Below are positions 14,964-22,516 of a stretch of 37,709 nt of DNA, one piece after another. The position numbers and the translations under genes were made by a program. Position 1 is the first letter of the stretch, and every line of letters starts with the position of its first letter. The stretch is from Leptolyngbyaceae cyanobacterium RM1_406_9 (GTDB taxonomy: Bacteria; Cyanobacteriota; Cyanobacteriia; Elainellales; Elainellaceae). The stretch spans positions 1 through 37,709 of the forward strand of contig JAAUQZ010000016.1 in assembly GCA_012033355.1 (NCBI GenBank). The letters run 5' to 3'. The notes beneath the pieces are model-generated. The model was not told where the DNA came from. It made no database searches and was given only the letters and a program-made list of their open reading frames with translations.

Positions 14964-16649
14964 ATGAATCATCCTGTTATCGCTATTGGGCTTGATGCCG
15001 CAGATCCATCACTGATTGAAGCTTGGATGTCGCAGGGACATTTGAAGACGTTGAAACAGTTACGCGATCGCGGCCTCTACACCCGCCTTAAAACCTTCGA
15101 TTATTACCGCGCAGAAACACCCTGGACAACTTTTTTGACGGGTATTTCTCCTGAAAACACGGGCTACTGGGCACCCGTAAAATTTCATGAGGGCACGTAT
15201 GAAGCGAAGGAAATTGAGGCTTACGATTTCTTGGAACACCAGCCCTTCTATGCTTTAGGAGATGACTATAAAGTTGCGGTATTTGATATGCCGCAGTCTA
15301 CTCTTTCTGAACGGGTCAATGGTTTGCAGGTTTTAGCTTGGGGGGCACATTCACCCCTTACGCCTAGCCATTCCAAGCCCGCAGATTTACTAGCAGAACT
15401 GACGCAAAAACACGGCGAACATCCGCGATTGCGAAACGATCATGCAAGCTGCATGAATGTAGCTGCATTAAAACGACTGCAAGCTGACATTCAGGTAGGA
15501 ATTGCCCGTCGTGCCGTAATCTGTCAGGATCTGTTGCAGCGCCAGCCCTGGGATTTGTTTCTCACTATTTTTGGAGAAACGCACTCTGCAGGTCACTATC
15601 TCTGGCACTTGAGCCAACCCAGCCATCCGCTGTATGAAATCTATAGAGATCAGGTTTCTGGCGACCCGCTGCTGGAAGTGTTTGAAGCGGTAGACGAGGC
15701 GATCGCCCAAATCCTATCAAAAGCGCCAAAAGATGCTCAGGTAGTCGTCTTTGCGGCACATGGCATGGGGGACAACGTGATGGACTTGCCCAGCATGGTG
15801 TTTTTGCCAGAACTGCTCTATCGGTTTAACTTTGGCAAACCTGCTCTTGCTGATGGACAGCTTGGCGCTCCACCCTCACAACCGATTACCAAAGGACGGG
15901 TCGAGCGAGGTTGGATTGGTGCCGTGTGGGGCTTAAAGCACGATGCCAATCGACTGAGAAGCTGGCTACGGCAAAAACTGCCCAATAAACTGTTCAGATA
16001 CATAGAGCCGCTATTTGGCAAAGACCAGCAGCCCGATCTGGTTTCCCCTTTCAAATTAATTGAGCAGGGCGACTCACTATTTTTTCAGCCTGCGGTTTGG
16101 TACAGGCCGTTTTGGTCACAGATGCGGGCATTTGCACTGCCCAGCTACTCTGAAGGCTACATTCGCATCAACCTAAAGGGGCGTGAGCCAGCGGGCATGG
16201 TTGACCCATCCGAGTATGAAGCGCTGTGTGATGAATTGAGTCAGCTTCTCTACAACCTGAAAGATGCACATACAGGGCAGCCAATGGTGAAGCAAATTGT
16301 GCGGACGCGCCAGCACCCAGACCAGCGTGACCCCAAATTGCCTGATGCCGATCTGGTGATTATCTGGCAAGAAGAGTACGTCACTGATGTTGTAGATAGT
16401 CCTGAATTGGGACGAGTTGGGCCCGTTCCCTACAGCCGTACCGGAAGCCACCGCAGCGATGGATTTCTGCTCGCGCAGGGTCCAGAAATTGAACCCGGTT
16501 CTAGTGCGCCAGAAGGTCATGCGCTAGACCTGGCCCCAACCGTTTTGAGCCTGATGGGTGCATCGATCCCTCCCCATTTTGAGGGAAGACCGCTGGTTGA
16601 AACGCTGGATTTTGGCTCAGTAACGTCACCTTCATTCATCTACCACTAG
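14964..16649 (+). CDS. Alkaline-phosphatase-superfamily phosphodiesterase/transferase
   Basis: This 561-aa protein has the type I phosphodiesterase/nucleotide pyrophosphatase core: metal-site Asp in IGLDAAD (9-13), nucleophile region ETPWTTFLTG (51-60, a Thr), GETHSAGH (204-211), AHGMGDN (265-271) and GSHRSDGF near the C-terminus. The usual SDHG is replaced by AHGMG, a variant I believe occurs in a subgroup of this superfamily. No signal peptide or membrane helix is seen, so it may act in the cytoplasm. In an exopolysaccharide locus it may hydrolyse or transfer a phospho- or related group on an intermediate; the substrate is unknown. I chose ATG 14964 because GAGGG lies about 7 bases upstream and IAIGLD follows; the track starts at GTG 14952. 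A truncated copy of its N-terminus follows at 16663. Confidence 0.85.
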   Translation: MNHPVIAIGLDAADPSLIEAWMSQGHLKTLKQLRDRGLYTRLKTFDYYRAETPWTTFLTGISPENTGYWAPVKFHEGTYEAKEIEAYDFLEHQPFYALGDDYKVAVFDMPQSTLSERVNGLQVLAWGAHSPLTPSHSKPADLLAELTQKHGEHPRLRNDHASCMNVAALKRLQADIQVGIARRAVICQDLLQRQPWDLFLTIFGETHSAGHYLWHLSQPSHPLYEIYRDQVSGDPLLEVFEAVDEAIAQILSKAPKDAQVVVFAAHGMGDNVMDLPSMVFLPELLYRFNFGKPALADGQLGAPPSQPITKGRVERGWIGAVWGLKHDANRLRSWLRQKLPNKLFRYIEPLFGKDQQPDLVSPFKLIEQGDSLFFQPAVWYRPFWSQMRAFALPSYSEGYIRINLKGREPAGMVDPSEYEALCDELSQLLYNLKDAHTGQPMVKQIVRTRQHPDQRDPKLPDADLVIIWQEEYVTDVVDSPELGRVGPVPYSRTGSHRSDGFLLAQGPEIEPGSSAPEGHALDLAPTVLSLMGASIPPHFEGRPLVETLDFGSVTSPSFIYH

Positions 16650-16662
16650 GCAAGAGGAGCAA

Positions 16663-16839
16663 ATGATGAAGCATATGGTTATTGCGATTGGTTTAGATTC
16701 GGCAGATCCGGTTTTGTTGGAGCAATGGATGTCTCAGGGGCATCTGAAAAAACTGCGACAGTTTCGGCAGCAAGGGGCATATGGGCGGCTAGTCGCCCCG
16801 ATCGAATTTGCTCTAGTTAACGACTTTGGTACGTTCTGA
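16663..16839 (+). pseudogene. 58-codon N-terminal relic copy of the upstream phosphatase gene
   Basis: This ORF is missing from the track because of its size. It reads MMKHMVIAIGLDSADPVLLE and then WMSQGHLKKLRQFRQQGAYGRL. Over the first 42 positions after the second Met I count about 29 identities with the start of the preceding phosphatase-superfamily protein. The similarity then ends, and a short unrelated tail runs to TGA. The nucleophile and all later metal sites are absent, so it cannot be an enzyme. It keeps a good ribosome binding site (GAGGAG) and its stop overlaps the next ATG as TGATG. It may therefore now work only as a leader peptide that couples translation to the GT4 gene. It arose by tandem duplication and deletion. 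Confidence 0.85.
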
Positions 16840-18245
16840 TGAAAACGATTCAAGCTGTCGCTCGATATTTCCCAGAAAAGTGTGGTGGTATTCATATTCA
16901 CCTGAGCGAACTGCTGCCTGTACTAAAGTCCCTCGGCGTGGAGAGCAAGGTTGCAGCATCGCAGGATTTACCAACCGAAGATCACTACACCTATCGAGAT
17001 ACAGAGGTTTACCGCTATCCGGTGTTTCCACAGCCTAAGTCTGAGCCAAATCATGGGGCGATCGCTCACGGTGGGTTCGATCGCTTTGCCCAATGGCTTA
17101 AATCCCAGCAGGCAGATGTGTATCACCAGCACCAGTGGACTCCCAAATGTGGCTTACCCCATCTGCGTTTAGCTAAAGAACTGGGAATGGCAACGGTGGT
17201 GTCAGTGCGCTTGCCTCAGCCGATTTGTCAGCGTCAAACCATGATGCTGTATGGGGAAACAGCCTGTGACGGCAAAATTGACCAGGTGCGCTGTAGCCGC
17301 TGCTGTGGGGTTTCGCCTCATTTGCCGCCTGCAATGCTCAAGGGATTGAGCCATACGCCAATGCCGATCAGCGTGGCAGCGGCGGGTGTGCTGCGGCGGC
17401 TTAACTCAGGCAGCATTCGATCGGTCGCAGAAGCCACCTTGCGACCGATCGCCATTCCTACGTTTGTGGTGGCGCGTCAGTATGGGCTACAGGAAATGGC
17501 GCAGTTTGCCGATCGCATTATTGTTATGAGCGAGTGGGTACGGCAGGCGCTACTGGTCAACGGCATTCCTGAGGAAAAGCTATTTTTACTGCGTCACGGC
17601 ATTTCGGATACGTTTGCTCAGCAGAAAGTGGCTCATGTGAGGGGCGATCGCCTGCGAGTTGGCTTTTTAGGACGCTGGGCACACGACAAAGGCATTCACA
17701 TTTTGGTGGAAGCAGTCAAGCGGCTACCCGAAGATTTTCCGATTGAGCTAATTTTGCACGGTGTACCGCAAGATGCTGCCTATCGAGAACGCATTACTGC
17801 CCGAATTGACAACGATCCACGCATTCGCGTTACCCAAGAACTGTCGAGATCAGAATTGCCTCAGGCGCTAGCGGGCTTTGATGTGCTGGCAGTTCCTTCA
17901 CAGTGGCTAGAAACGGGTCCCGTTGTGGTGCTGGAGGCTCATGCACACGGTTTGCCTGTGATGGGTTCTGACCTGGGCGGTATTGCGGAAAAGGTGAAGC
18001 ACGGCGTAGATGGGCTGCTGGTTGCGGCTGGCGATCCGGCTGCTTGGGCAGATGCTTTTGCGCGACTGGCGCTGGATGAAGACTACTTAAATCAGCTACA
18101 AGCCGGAATTCAGCCTGTCCGCACGATCAGCATGGAGGCGGCAGAGTCGCTGATGGTTTACCAGAGCGTACTGGTCAAACAGTCTACGGTGGGCAATCCC
18201 TGGACTGAAGCAACTCCGATGGAAGCAGGTGTGGGAGTGCTTTAA
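16839..18245 (+). CDS. GT4 family glycosyltransferase with cysteine-rich insert
   Basis: This 468-aa enzyme has a two-domain GT-B layout. The N-terminal acceptor domain begins with the Gly-rich loop PEKCGGIHIHLSEL (12-25) and contains YHQHQW. The C-terminal donor domain has VGFLGRWAHDKGIHILVEAV, VPSQWLETGPVVVLEAHAHGLPV (the EX7E-like site) and SDLGGIAEKV. Between them a segment with C130, C143, C152, C155 and C156 (Cx12Cx8CxxCC) looks like a metal or Fe-S binding insert found in a subset of GT4 enzymes; this is inferred from spacing. It transfers a sugar to a lipid-linked intermediate in the cytoplasm. Its ATG overlaps the TGA of the 58-codon relic, so its translation is probably coupled to that ORF. 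The sugar is unknown. Confidence 0.9.
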   Translation: MKTIQAVARYFPEKCGGIHIHLSELLPVLKSLGVESKVAASQDLPTEDHYTYRDTEVYRYPVFPQPKSEPNHGAIAHGGFDRFAQWLKSQQADVYHQHQWTPKCGLPHLRLAKELGMATVVSVRLPQPICQRQTMMLYGETACDGKIDQVRCSRCCGVSPHLPPAMLKGLSHTPMPISVAAAGVLRRLNSGSIRSVAEATLRPIAIPTFVVARQYGLQEMAQFADRIIVMSEWVRQALLVNGIPEEKLFLLRHGISDTFAQQKVAHVRGDRLRVGFLGRWAHDKGIHILVEAVKRLPEDFPIELILHGVPQDAAYRERITARIDNDPRIRVTQELSRSELPQALAGFDVLAVPSQWLETGPVVVLEAHAHGLPVMGSDLGGIAEKVKHGVDGLLVAAGDPAAWADAFARLALDEDYLNQLQAGIQPVRTISMEAAESLMVYQSVLVKQSTVGNPWTEATPMEAGVGVL

Positions 18246-21149: not shown

Positions 21150-22437
21150 AACCCCAAAACTTTGAAGAAACCGTAATTTGGTACTACATTATCGGCAGTC
21201 TGGGGCTGTATTTTGTTGGAGCTTTATTTGTTACGGGTCCAGCCCTGGCCTGGCTCCTGGCACTTTACTTGATCAAACGGCTCTGGCAGCAAACAGATGC
21301 GACTCCTGAAAACCAAAGAATTTCAATTCCACCAGGAGTTTGGGTGTGGATTGGGGCAATGCTGGTGATTGGATTGGCTCTAGTCATCGGACATATTAAC
21401 TTCGGTTACGATGATGTCAAAATTATCAAATCATTTATCAATTTCTTCCTGCGAACCTGGGCGTTGCTAGCCCTGTTCCCGCTGATTGGTTGCCTCAACA
21501 TTCGACCACAACTGCTCTACCGAGCAATTTGTATCTTGTGTCTGCAATGTTTGATTCTGGTTCCAATTGCTTACCTTTTAAGTACAACGGGTATCGAAAC
21601 ACCTCTATATAACGTTTCGCTACTGGCTAAAATCGGCGGCAACAGTGAACGTTTTTACAACGTCAGCTTATTTTCAAGACAGCAAGGTGAAGTTCGTCTG
21701 CTTATCTTTGCTCCCTGGGCACCTGCGCTAGCATTTGCAGGCAACATTTATTTTTGTCTGGCTAGCCAAGATTCTGATAAAAAATGGCGCTGGATTGGAA
21801 TGGTTTCTAGCGCAATTATGATTTGGGGTTCGGCTTCTCGATTGGGTTTACTTTGCCTGATCAGTTTGCCGTTTTGAAGGCGATCGCCACTCATTTAAGC
21901 CGTCCAAGTGTACAAATCCTGGCCGGAATTTCTAGCTTTGCAGCAGGTCTTTTTGGACCTCAGCTTATTGGTTATGCGAGAGACTTCAAAGACTATTTTG
22001 ATAGTCAAAGAGCATCTTCCTCCAACCTGCGTGAGCTTTTACAAAGAATGGCACTCTACCAATGGCAAGAAGCTCCTATATGGGGGCATGGCATCAAAGC
22101 TCCACGCGGACCAGCAGTCACAAACTTTATGCCCGTTGGTAGCCATCACACCTGGCTAGGGCTGCTTTATGTGCATGGAATTGTTGGCTTTATTGCCTTA
22201 GCCCTCGCGATGTTGTACAGCTTCATAGAACTGCTAATTAAAGCTCAAAAGAGTAAAGCTGCTCAAACAGGGCTAGCTGTACTTTTAGTTTTAATTCTCT
22301 TTTCATTAGGTGAAAATCTAGAAACTCTAGCCTACCTTTATTGGCCAGGTTTGTTAATGCTAGGCATTGCTTTTAAAGAACCATTTCCGGCGCTTTTTGC
22401 TCACTTCAAGCCGCAGTTCAATCAATCTCAGGCTTGA
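21146..22437 (+). pseudogene. Wzy/O-antigen-ligase-like polymerase, frameshifted
   Basis: Two overlapping ORFs (21146-21877 and 21823-22437) form one polytopic membrane protein of about 430 aa. The first has about seven hydrophobic helices and ends ...GLLCLISLPF; the second continues LKAIATHLSRPSVQ, then the polymerase-type loop GHGIKAP...SHHTWLGLLYVHGIVGF and two or three more helices. Adding one T to the TTTT run near 21870 joins them as LPF-LKAIA. Wzy and WaaL-type proteins polymerise or ligate lipid-linked repeat units on the periplasmic side of the inner membrane. Position after the co-polymerase and before the flippase supports the polymerase role. It is a single gene with a sequencing error, or a recently broken polymerase; in the latter case the locus would need another. 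Confidence 0.85.
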
Positions 22438-22438
22438 A

Positions 22439-22478
22439 CTTTTGTAGGAAGTGAATGATCATTCACTTCCTACAAAAG
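22439..22478. repeat. Perfect 40-base palindrome
   Basis: CTTTTGTAGGAAGTGAATGA is followed directly by its reverse complement, with no spacer. It starts two bases after the polymerase stop codon (TGA 22435-22437). No T tract follows, so it is not a standard intrinsic terminator. It could be an mRNA processing or stability hairpin, or the recognition site of a dimeric protein. Confidence 0.85.
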
Positions 22479-22516
22479 ATGAAAAATTTAATTTCTAGAT
22501 TGTAGAGGTTTAAGTA

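Follow-up and report, generated by a model that had tools for sequence, protein, structure and literature searches.

A short open frame ending on a glycosyltransferase start in a Leptolyngbyaceae cyanobacterium is the stump of a lost phosphatase-family gene and may be an incidental translational leader

Does a short open frame that ends on the start codon of a glycosyltransferase gene act as a translational leader for that gene, and has it been kept for this purpose? The question arises in a stretch of 37,709 nucleotides from Leptolyngbyaceae cyanobacterium RM1_406_9 (contig JAAUQZ010000016.1), referred to here as the window, where the frame is part of a cyanobacterial sugar-polymer gene cluster. 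The frame (16663..16839, + strand; peptide MMKHMVIAIGLDSADPVLLEQWMSQGHLKKLRQFRQQGAYGRLVAPIEFALVNDFGTF) is located between an intact phosphatase/phosphodiesterase-family gene, Pase1 (14964..16649, + strand), and the gene to which it would be coupled, the glycosyltransferase gene GT4 (16839..18245, + strand; 468 aa; Pfam Glyco_trans_1_4 / Glycos_transf_1). The original prediction described it as a truncated copy of the phosphatase N-terminus, retained with its own ribosome site and overlapping the GT4 start. The physical elements of this description were all found in the DNA. The frame has 58 codons and 0 internal stops, and it is preceded by a Shine-Dalgarno (SD)-like GAGGAG (16654..16659, + strand) situated 3 nt from a first ATG (16663) and 6 nt from a second one (16666). 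It finishes in a TGATG (16837..16841, + strand) in which the stop TGA (16837-16839) and the ATG of GT4 (from 16839) have one base in common, the upstream stop overlapping the downstream start as in TGATG gene pairs.

Comparison of the relic with the N-terminus of the adjacent Pase1 revealed 67-71% amino acid identity over the ~43 N-terminal codons, a level that indicates homology and not chance. Two genomes of the same genus were available for comparison, Cyanobacteria bacterium FACHB-471 (G001) and the MAG Leptolyngbyaceae SM1_4_3 (G002), both with GT4 orthologues at 91-92% amino acid identity. The gene order in FACHB-471 is WecG, Pase1, Pase2, an 88-nt spacer and GT4, colinear with the window on both flanks; its Pase1 orthologue is 91% identical in amino acids to that of the window, and the additional gene between Pase1 and GT4, Pase2, is full-length (locus L033, 2919-4583; 554 aa). 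The segment of the relic from the second ATG to ~16797 corresponds to the N-terminus of Pase2, with 84-86% amino acid and 89% nucleotide identity to L033 2919-3047. A partial duplication of Pase1 was ruled out by these values (61% nucleotide identity to Pase1 vs 89% to the Pase2 of the sister genome). The proposal of a truncated phosphatase copy was thus right about the relic status of the frame and wrong about its source, since amino acid identity is 66% to the upstream phosphatase vs 84-86% to Pase2. A Pase2 homologue (66-68% amino acid identity) also ends 110-114 nt upstream of GT4 in Argonema antarcticum (L042) and in an uncultured cyanobacterium (L043). The presence of Pase2 ahead of GT4 in these two loci and in FACHB-471 indicates that the intact Pase2-GT4 order is ancestral and that the window lost Pase2. 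Comparison with the syntenic intact orthologue shows the relic to be the 5′ stump of a separate, ancestral and once full-length phosphatase/phosphodiesterase-family gene.

Pfam family PF01663 matched both Pase1 (3.5e-14), a paralogue of the gene from which the relic derives, and the Pase2 of FACHB-471 (2.5e-12). The relic itself had no Pfam match at E ≤ 1, PF01663 (phosphodiesterase / nucleotide pyrophosphatase) included, and the search for PDB relatives of Pase2 gave none at E ≤ 1e-3. Family and order searches for more genus members with orthologues above 90% yielded FACHB-471 and SM1_4_3 only, and a further genome, G003, at 61% and with no adjacent phosphatase.

The distance from the Pase2 ATG to the GT4 ATG is 1753 nt in FACHB-471 vs 173 nt in the window, which is thus shorter by a net ~1580 nt. 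Pase2 breaks off at its 5′ breakpoint after codon 43-44, and no clear homology is seen again until TTTGG(T)ACGTTCTGATG on the 3′ side. The Pase2 remnant is separated from the pre-GT4 spacer by ~27 nt of unclear origin (16798..16824, + strand), which contain CTCTAGTTAA; this element resembles the last Pase2 codons (L V K), a resemblance that is not significant (P 0.16 for the junction sequence vs the Pase2 3′ end, and P 0.89 vs the FACHB-471 spacer). A net deletion of ~1.58 kb, possibly in two steps, took out Pase2 from codon ~45 to its end, and with it the catalytic part, the Pase2 stop and the hairpin-bearing intercistronic spacer, all of them missing from the window. The Pase2 ribosome site and the first 43-44 codons were thereby fused to the last ~15 nt preceding GT4, in a frame ending on a TGATG that already stood there. 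Also absent from the relic is the block E51..W54-T55..F57-L58-T59-G60 of the active-site region, which varies little or not at all among 31 homologues, together with all that lies downstream of it, so that enzyme activity is not expected of the relic.

The genome is a draft assembly of 404 contigs, 83% complete, in which no intact Pase2 was found elsewhere, and in such an assembly the deletion might be an artefact created by a false join. We regard this as highly improbable: the junction is in the interior of the contig and flanked by colinear sequence, the relic carries its own substitutions relative to FACHB-471, the separate MAG SM1_4_3 is also without Pase2 at the same place, and the N-termini of Pase1 and Pase2 are too different (only ~58-61% nucleotide identity) to have been collapsed.

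Comparison of the relic with intact Pase2 gave a dN of 0.094, a dS of 0.234 and a ratio of 0.40 (44 codons, one comparator), vs dN/dS values of 0.04-0.08 for the neighbours Pase1, WecG and GT4 in the same genome pair. The contrast in N:S between the relic and its neighbours was significant (Fisher P = 0.005), again on 44 codons and one comparator. It has to be noted that the dS of the relic (0.23) is unexpectedly low relative to that of the neighbours (0.58-1.4). Two residues well conserved in the family, P4 and N29, are altered in the relic. These data fit a relaxation of amino-acid constraint on the remaining codons, as estimated from those 44 codons and a single comparator. A function for the 58-aa peptide as a small protein is very improbable: ~43 N-terminal residues are kept, with the invariant GLD (9-11) followed by ADP (13-15), but the peptide has no family match, it lacks the conserved T/W block, its constraint is relaxed, and the equivalent ORF of SM1_4_3 encodes an unrelated peptide, MMKPRLLGIQSSSPFSLPYFGAF. 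Having lost the catalytic region and with its constraint relaxed, the peptide would probably be non-functional.

The absence of stops was given weight in the original prediction, on the argument that a fragment of no use should decay. This argument did not hold. The relic differs from intact Pase2 at ~15 of 132 nt, and a simulated 58-codon frame receiving 8-15 random substitutions stays open with P 0.72-0.56. With so few substitutions, the frame would in the majority of cases stay open even if selection were absent, and openness as a sign of selection was discarded. The same TGATG pentamer is found ahead of GT4 in FACHB-471, where it is non-coding and the frame is open for 4 codons only; the TGATG is, on this comparison, older than the deletion. 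The chance that a random join ends on it is ~1/3 per deletion if the acceptor tail is open in frame; if the join is made to the last 60-85 nt of the FACHB-471 spacer, it is 0.05-0.08. Neither the open frame of the relic nor its TGATG ending is beyond chance, and nothing indicates that the fragment as such has been retained for some function.

A second remnant was found in SM1_4_3, which lost even more of Pase2 than the window did. Its ORF has 23 codons (L004 1113-1184) and also ends on TGATG. Inside this remnant, ACAGGAGCAAATGATGAAGC is followed by only ~20 nt that resemble Pase2 with an apparent 1-nt loss, then by a C/T-rich stretch and by TTTTGGTGCGTTCTGATG; comparison of its tail with the FACHB-471 spacer gave P = 0.08. 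The SD and the ATGATG are kept, with ACAGGAG at the place where the window has GAGGAG and FACHB-471 only AAGAAC. The peptides of the 58-codon and 23-codon remnants are unrelated, and what they have in common is the start and the TGATG end, in n = 2 genomes and with a chance of ~0.1-0.3: the joint chance of both remnants being in frame is ~0.1 if they are independent and ~0.3 if they go back to one event. The in-frame ending in SM1_4_3 is a mild hint against pure chance, and the two remnants, with their common ribosome site, start and overlapping stop, constitute the best evidence for a leader role, drawn from only two cases. In favour of the original prediction, SM1_4_3 has the SD, the ATGATG and the in-frame TGATG around a different and more eroded interior. 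The GT4 of FACHB-471 has no leader.

Regarding the signals for coupling, the predicted anti-SD duplex at the relic/Pase2 start was -8.2 kcal/mol in the window and -6.6 kcal/mol in SM1_4_3, vs -3.7 kcal/mol for the intact Pase2 of FACHB-471. The GT4 start is without SD in the three genomes (predicted anti-SD duplex of -2.8 kcal/mol), and no SD for GT4 was found inside the 3′ end of the relic (...GACTTTGGTACGTTCTGATG), where the best anti-SD duplex was -2.8 kcal/mol. In all three relatives that keep Pase2, the Pase2-GT4 spacer is 88-114 nt long and contains a stable hairpin (L033 4584-4671, z -2.7; L042 5890-6000, z -5.3; L043 2216-2329, z -2.9), so termination-reinitiation is not expected there. 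The hairpin sequence in FACHB-471 is unrelated to that in L042 and L043. The window and SM1_4_3 have neither spacer nor hairpin, and their frames overlap by 1 nt, a geometry in which genes are usually coupled. In E. coli and H. volcanii, gene pairs with a TGATG or ATGA overlap are as a rule coupled (PMC6728339). At a spacing of ~20 nt almost no coupling remains (PMC10666635), and in the UAAUG of phage GA it works without a downstream SD (PMC9955659).

Given that the relic has a strong SD, that GT4 lacks one and that the two overlap by 1 nt, termination-reinitiation from the relic to GT4 would be physically plausible, and to this extent the idea of a leader was supported. Ribosomes would very probably still load at GAGGAG-ATGATG; they would then read the 58 codons, halt at the UGA and could restart on the overlapping AUG, thus adding to the translation of GT4. 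This coupling may be weak, as there is no SD near the GT4 start within the relic and, for most of the E. coli pairs examined, reinitiation fell by 60-90% once the internal SD was removed (PMC6728339). In cyanobacteria, overlapping gene pairs make up less than 10%, and an SD for the second gene is present in only ~40% of them and is not obligatory (PMC6728339). A GT4 start gated by structure and opened by translation of the leader was ruled out, with no unusual folding at this place in the window or in SM1_4_3. No sigma-70-like match for an internal GT4 promoter was found in 16300-17000, and a terminator search of the same interval gave one terminator-like match, on the minus strand and at chance level. 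We put at about even the chances that the coupling is an incidental by-product of the Pase2 deletion rather than a selected device, with a stump that would be translated and ribosomes that would pass from it to GT4; this is the likeliest of the readings considered.

The relic may also have no effect on GT4: the same remnant would then be inert, and the translation of GT4 would start on its own and without an SD, as it does in FACHB-471. We consider this possible but rather unlikely. GT4 may not depend on the relic, given that it starts without SD or overlap in FACHB-471 and in the Argonema-type relatives, and the same SD-less start sequence occurs in FACHB-471 with no overlapping ORF. Furthermore, the SD is used for de novo initiation in ≤ ~20% of leading genes in cyanobacteria (PMC6728339), chance is enough to account for the open frame, the TGATG was present before the deletion and the structure predicted around the start of GT4 has no unusual stability (z +0.8). 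On the contrary side, a strong SD and an ATGATG stand 5′ of a frame that ends exactly on the GT4 start, and overlapping pairs were almost always coupled in the two species tested (PMC6728339).

Selection for a leader appears unlikely. In that case, the ribosome site, the ATGATG and the in-frame TGATG would have been kept or re-established after the loss of Pase2 to boost or set the output of GT4, the peptide sequence being irrelevant. Consistent with it, the SM1_4_3 ORF keeps AGGAGCAAATGATGAAG and the TGATG end despite the loss of almost all of Pase2 and a frame change of ~1 nt near codon 3, both genomes with a relic have a stronger SD than FACHB-471 with its intact gene, and the pre-GT4 hairpin is absent from both of them. 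In addition, distant GT4 homologues (42-46%) from another cyanobacterial family have a conserved upstream ORF of ~72 aa overlapping by ATGA, which shows that genes of this type can be overlapped by a small ORF. However, there are only two genomes, each in frame with a chance of ~1/3 given an open acceptor (jointly ~0.1-0.3), and too few substitutions have accumulated for maintenance to become apparent.

In terms of known systems, bacterial pseudogene fragments left after internal deletion have in common with the relic the 5′ stump and the intact orthologue that a sister genome carries at the corresponding place; nothing essential differs, and the only unusual feature of the relic is its in-frame ending on the start of the next gene. 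In the engineered bicistronic design, a short SD-led leader cistron overlaps the gene of interest. A short leader ending on the next start codon is common to this design and to the relic, whose translation would be presumed, but the engineered leader bears a second SD for the downstream gene and the relic does not. Overlapping stop/start pairs of the TGATG/ATGA type (Huber et al. 2019, PMC6728339; 2023, PMC10666635) resemble the relic in the 1-nt TGATG overlap, the co-directional arrangement and the upstream ribosome site; they differ from it in that the upstream frame of the relic pair is a gene stump and not a partner subunit, no SD is present in its 3′ end and its coupling is predicted only. 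The coat/lysis UAAUG of RNA phage GA (PMC9955659) likewise has an SD-less downstream start sharing bases with the upstream stop, after an upstream ORF of more than 5 codons, but both genes of the phage pair are functional, as demonstrated by experiment. No direct precedent for a gene remnant serving as translational leader was found in the literature searched.

It is improbable, in our judgement, that the loss of Pase2 created a new leader, the 58- and 23-codon remnants keeping a strong SD and TGATG because coupling replaced the uncoupled, hairpin-separated arrangement. If this were true, the locus would be a clear case of a coupled start arising in one step from gene loss, in which two uncoupled genes, separated by 88-114 nt and a hairpin, gave way to a 1-nt overlap led by the ribosome site of the lost gene. 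The intact, 58-codon and 23-codon states are present in three genomes of one genus, and their effect on the glycosyltransferase is thus directly comparable. If the remnants are only debris, they serve as a warning that function cannot be concluded from a short frame being open, having an SD and ending in TGATG.

Several additional observations were made. The ~72-aa conserved ORF (e.g. MVRAAHNRFNLPTQRILDRILELRQLNRHEHLHLASLLLANHRLSPDERQQINQIFDQIQSGRIKLVDEGFSPT) upstream of distant GT4 homologues (about 41-46%) occurs at six loci in six genomes of another cyanobacterial family (L050, L054 and L055, at about 1250-1504; L052, L053 and L056, on the reverse strand); its stop overlaps the GT4 start by ATGA, and it had no Pfam match above cutoff. 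The C-terminus of Pase1 in the window (16600-16649) is shifted by an apparent 1-nt insertion, reading ETLDFGSVTSPSFIYH vs ETLILAK in FACHB-471, and as a result the Pase1 stop is now only 13 nt 5′ of the relic start. Pase1 is 97.7% identical to that of SM1_4_3 (14973-16649 vs L004 9-1073), whereas GT4 is only 92% identical (16839-18245 vs L004 1184-2608); this abrupt rise in divergence over ~200 nt may correspond to a recombination edge near the relic. Finally, a near-perfect 25-nt inverted repeat with no loop spacing (TTGAACTTTTGTAGGAAGTGAATGA / TCATTCACTTCCTACAAAAGATGAA) was observed between ORFs at 22434-22483.
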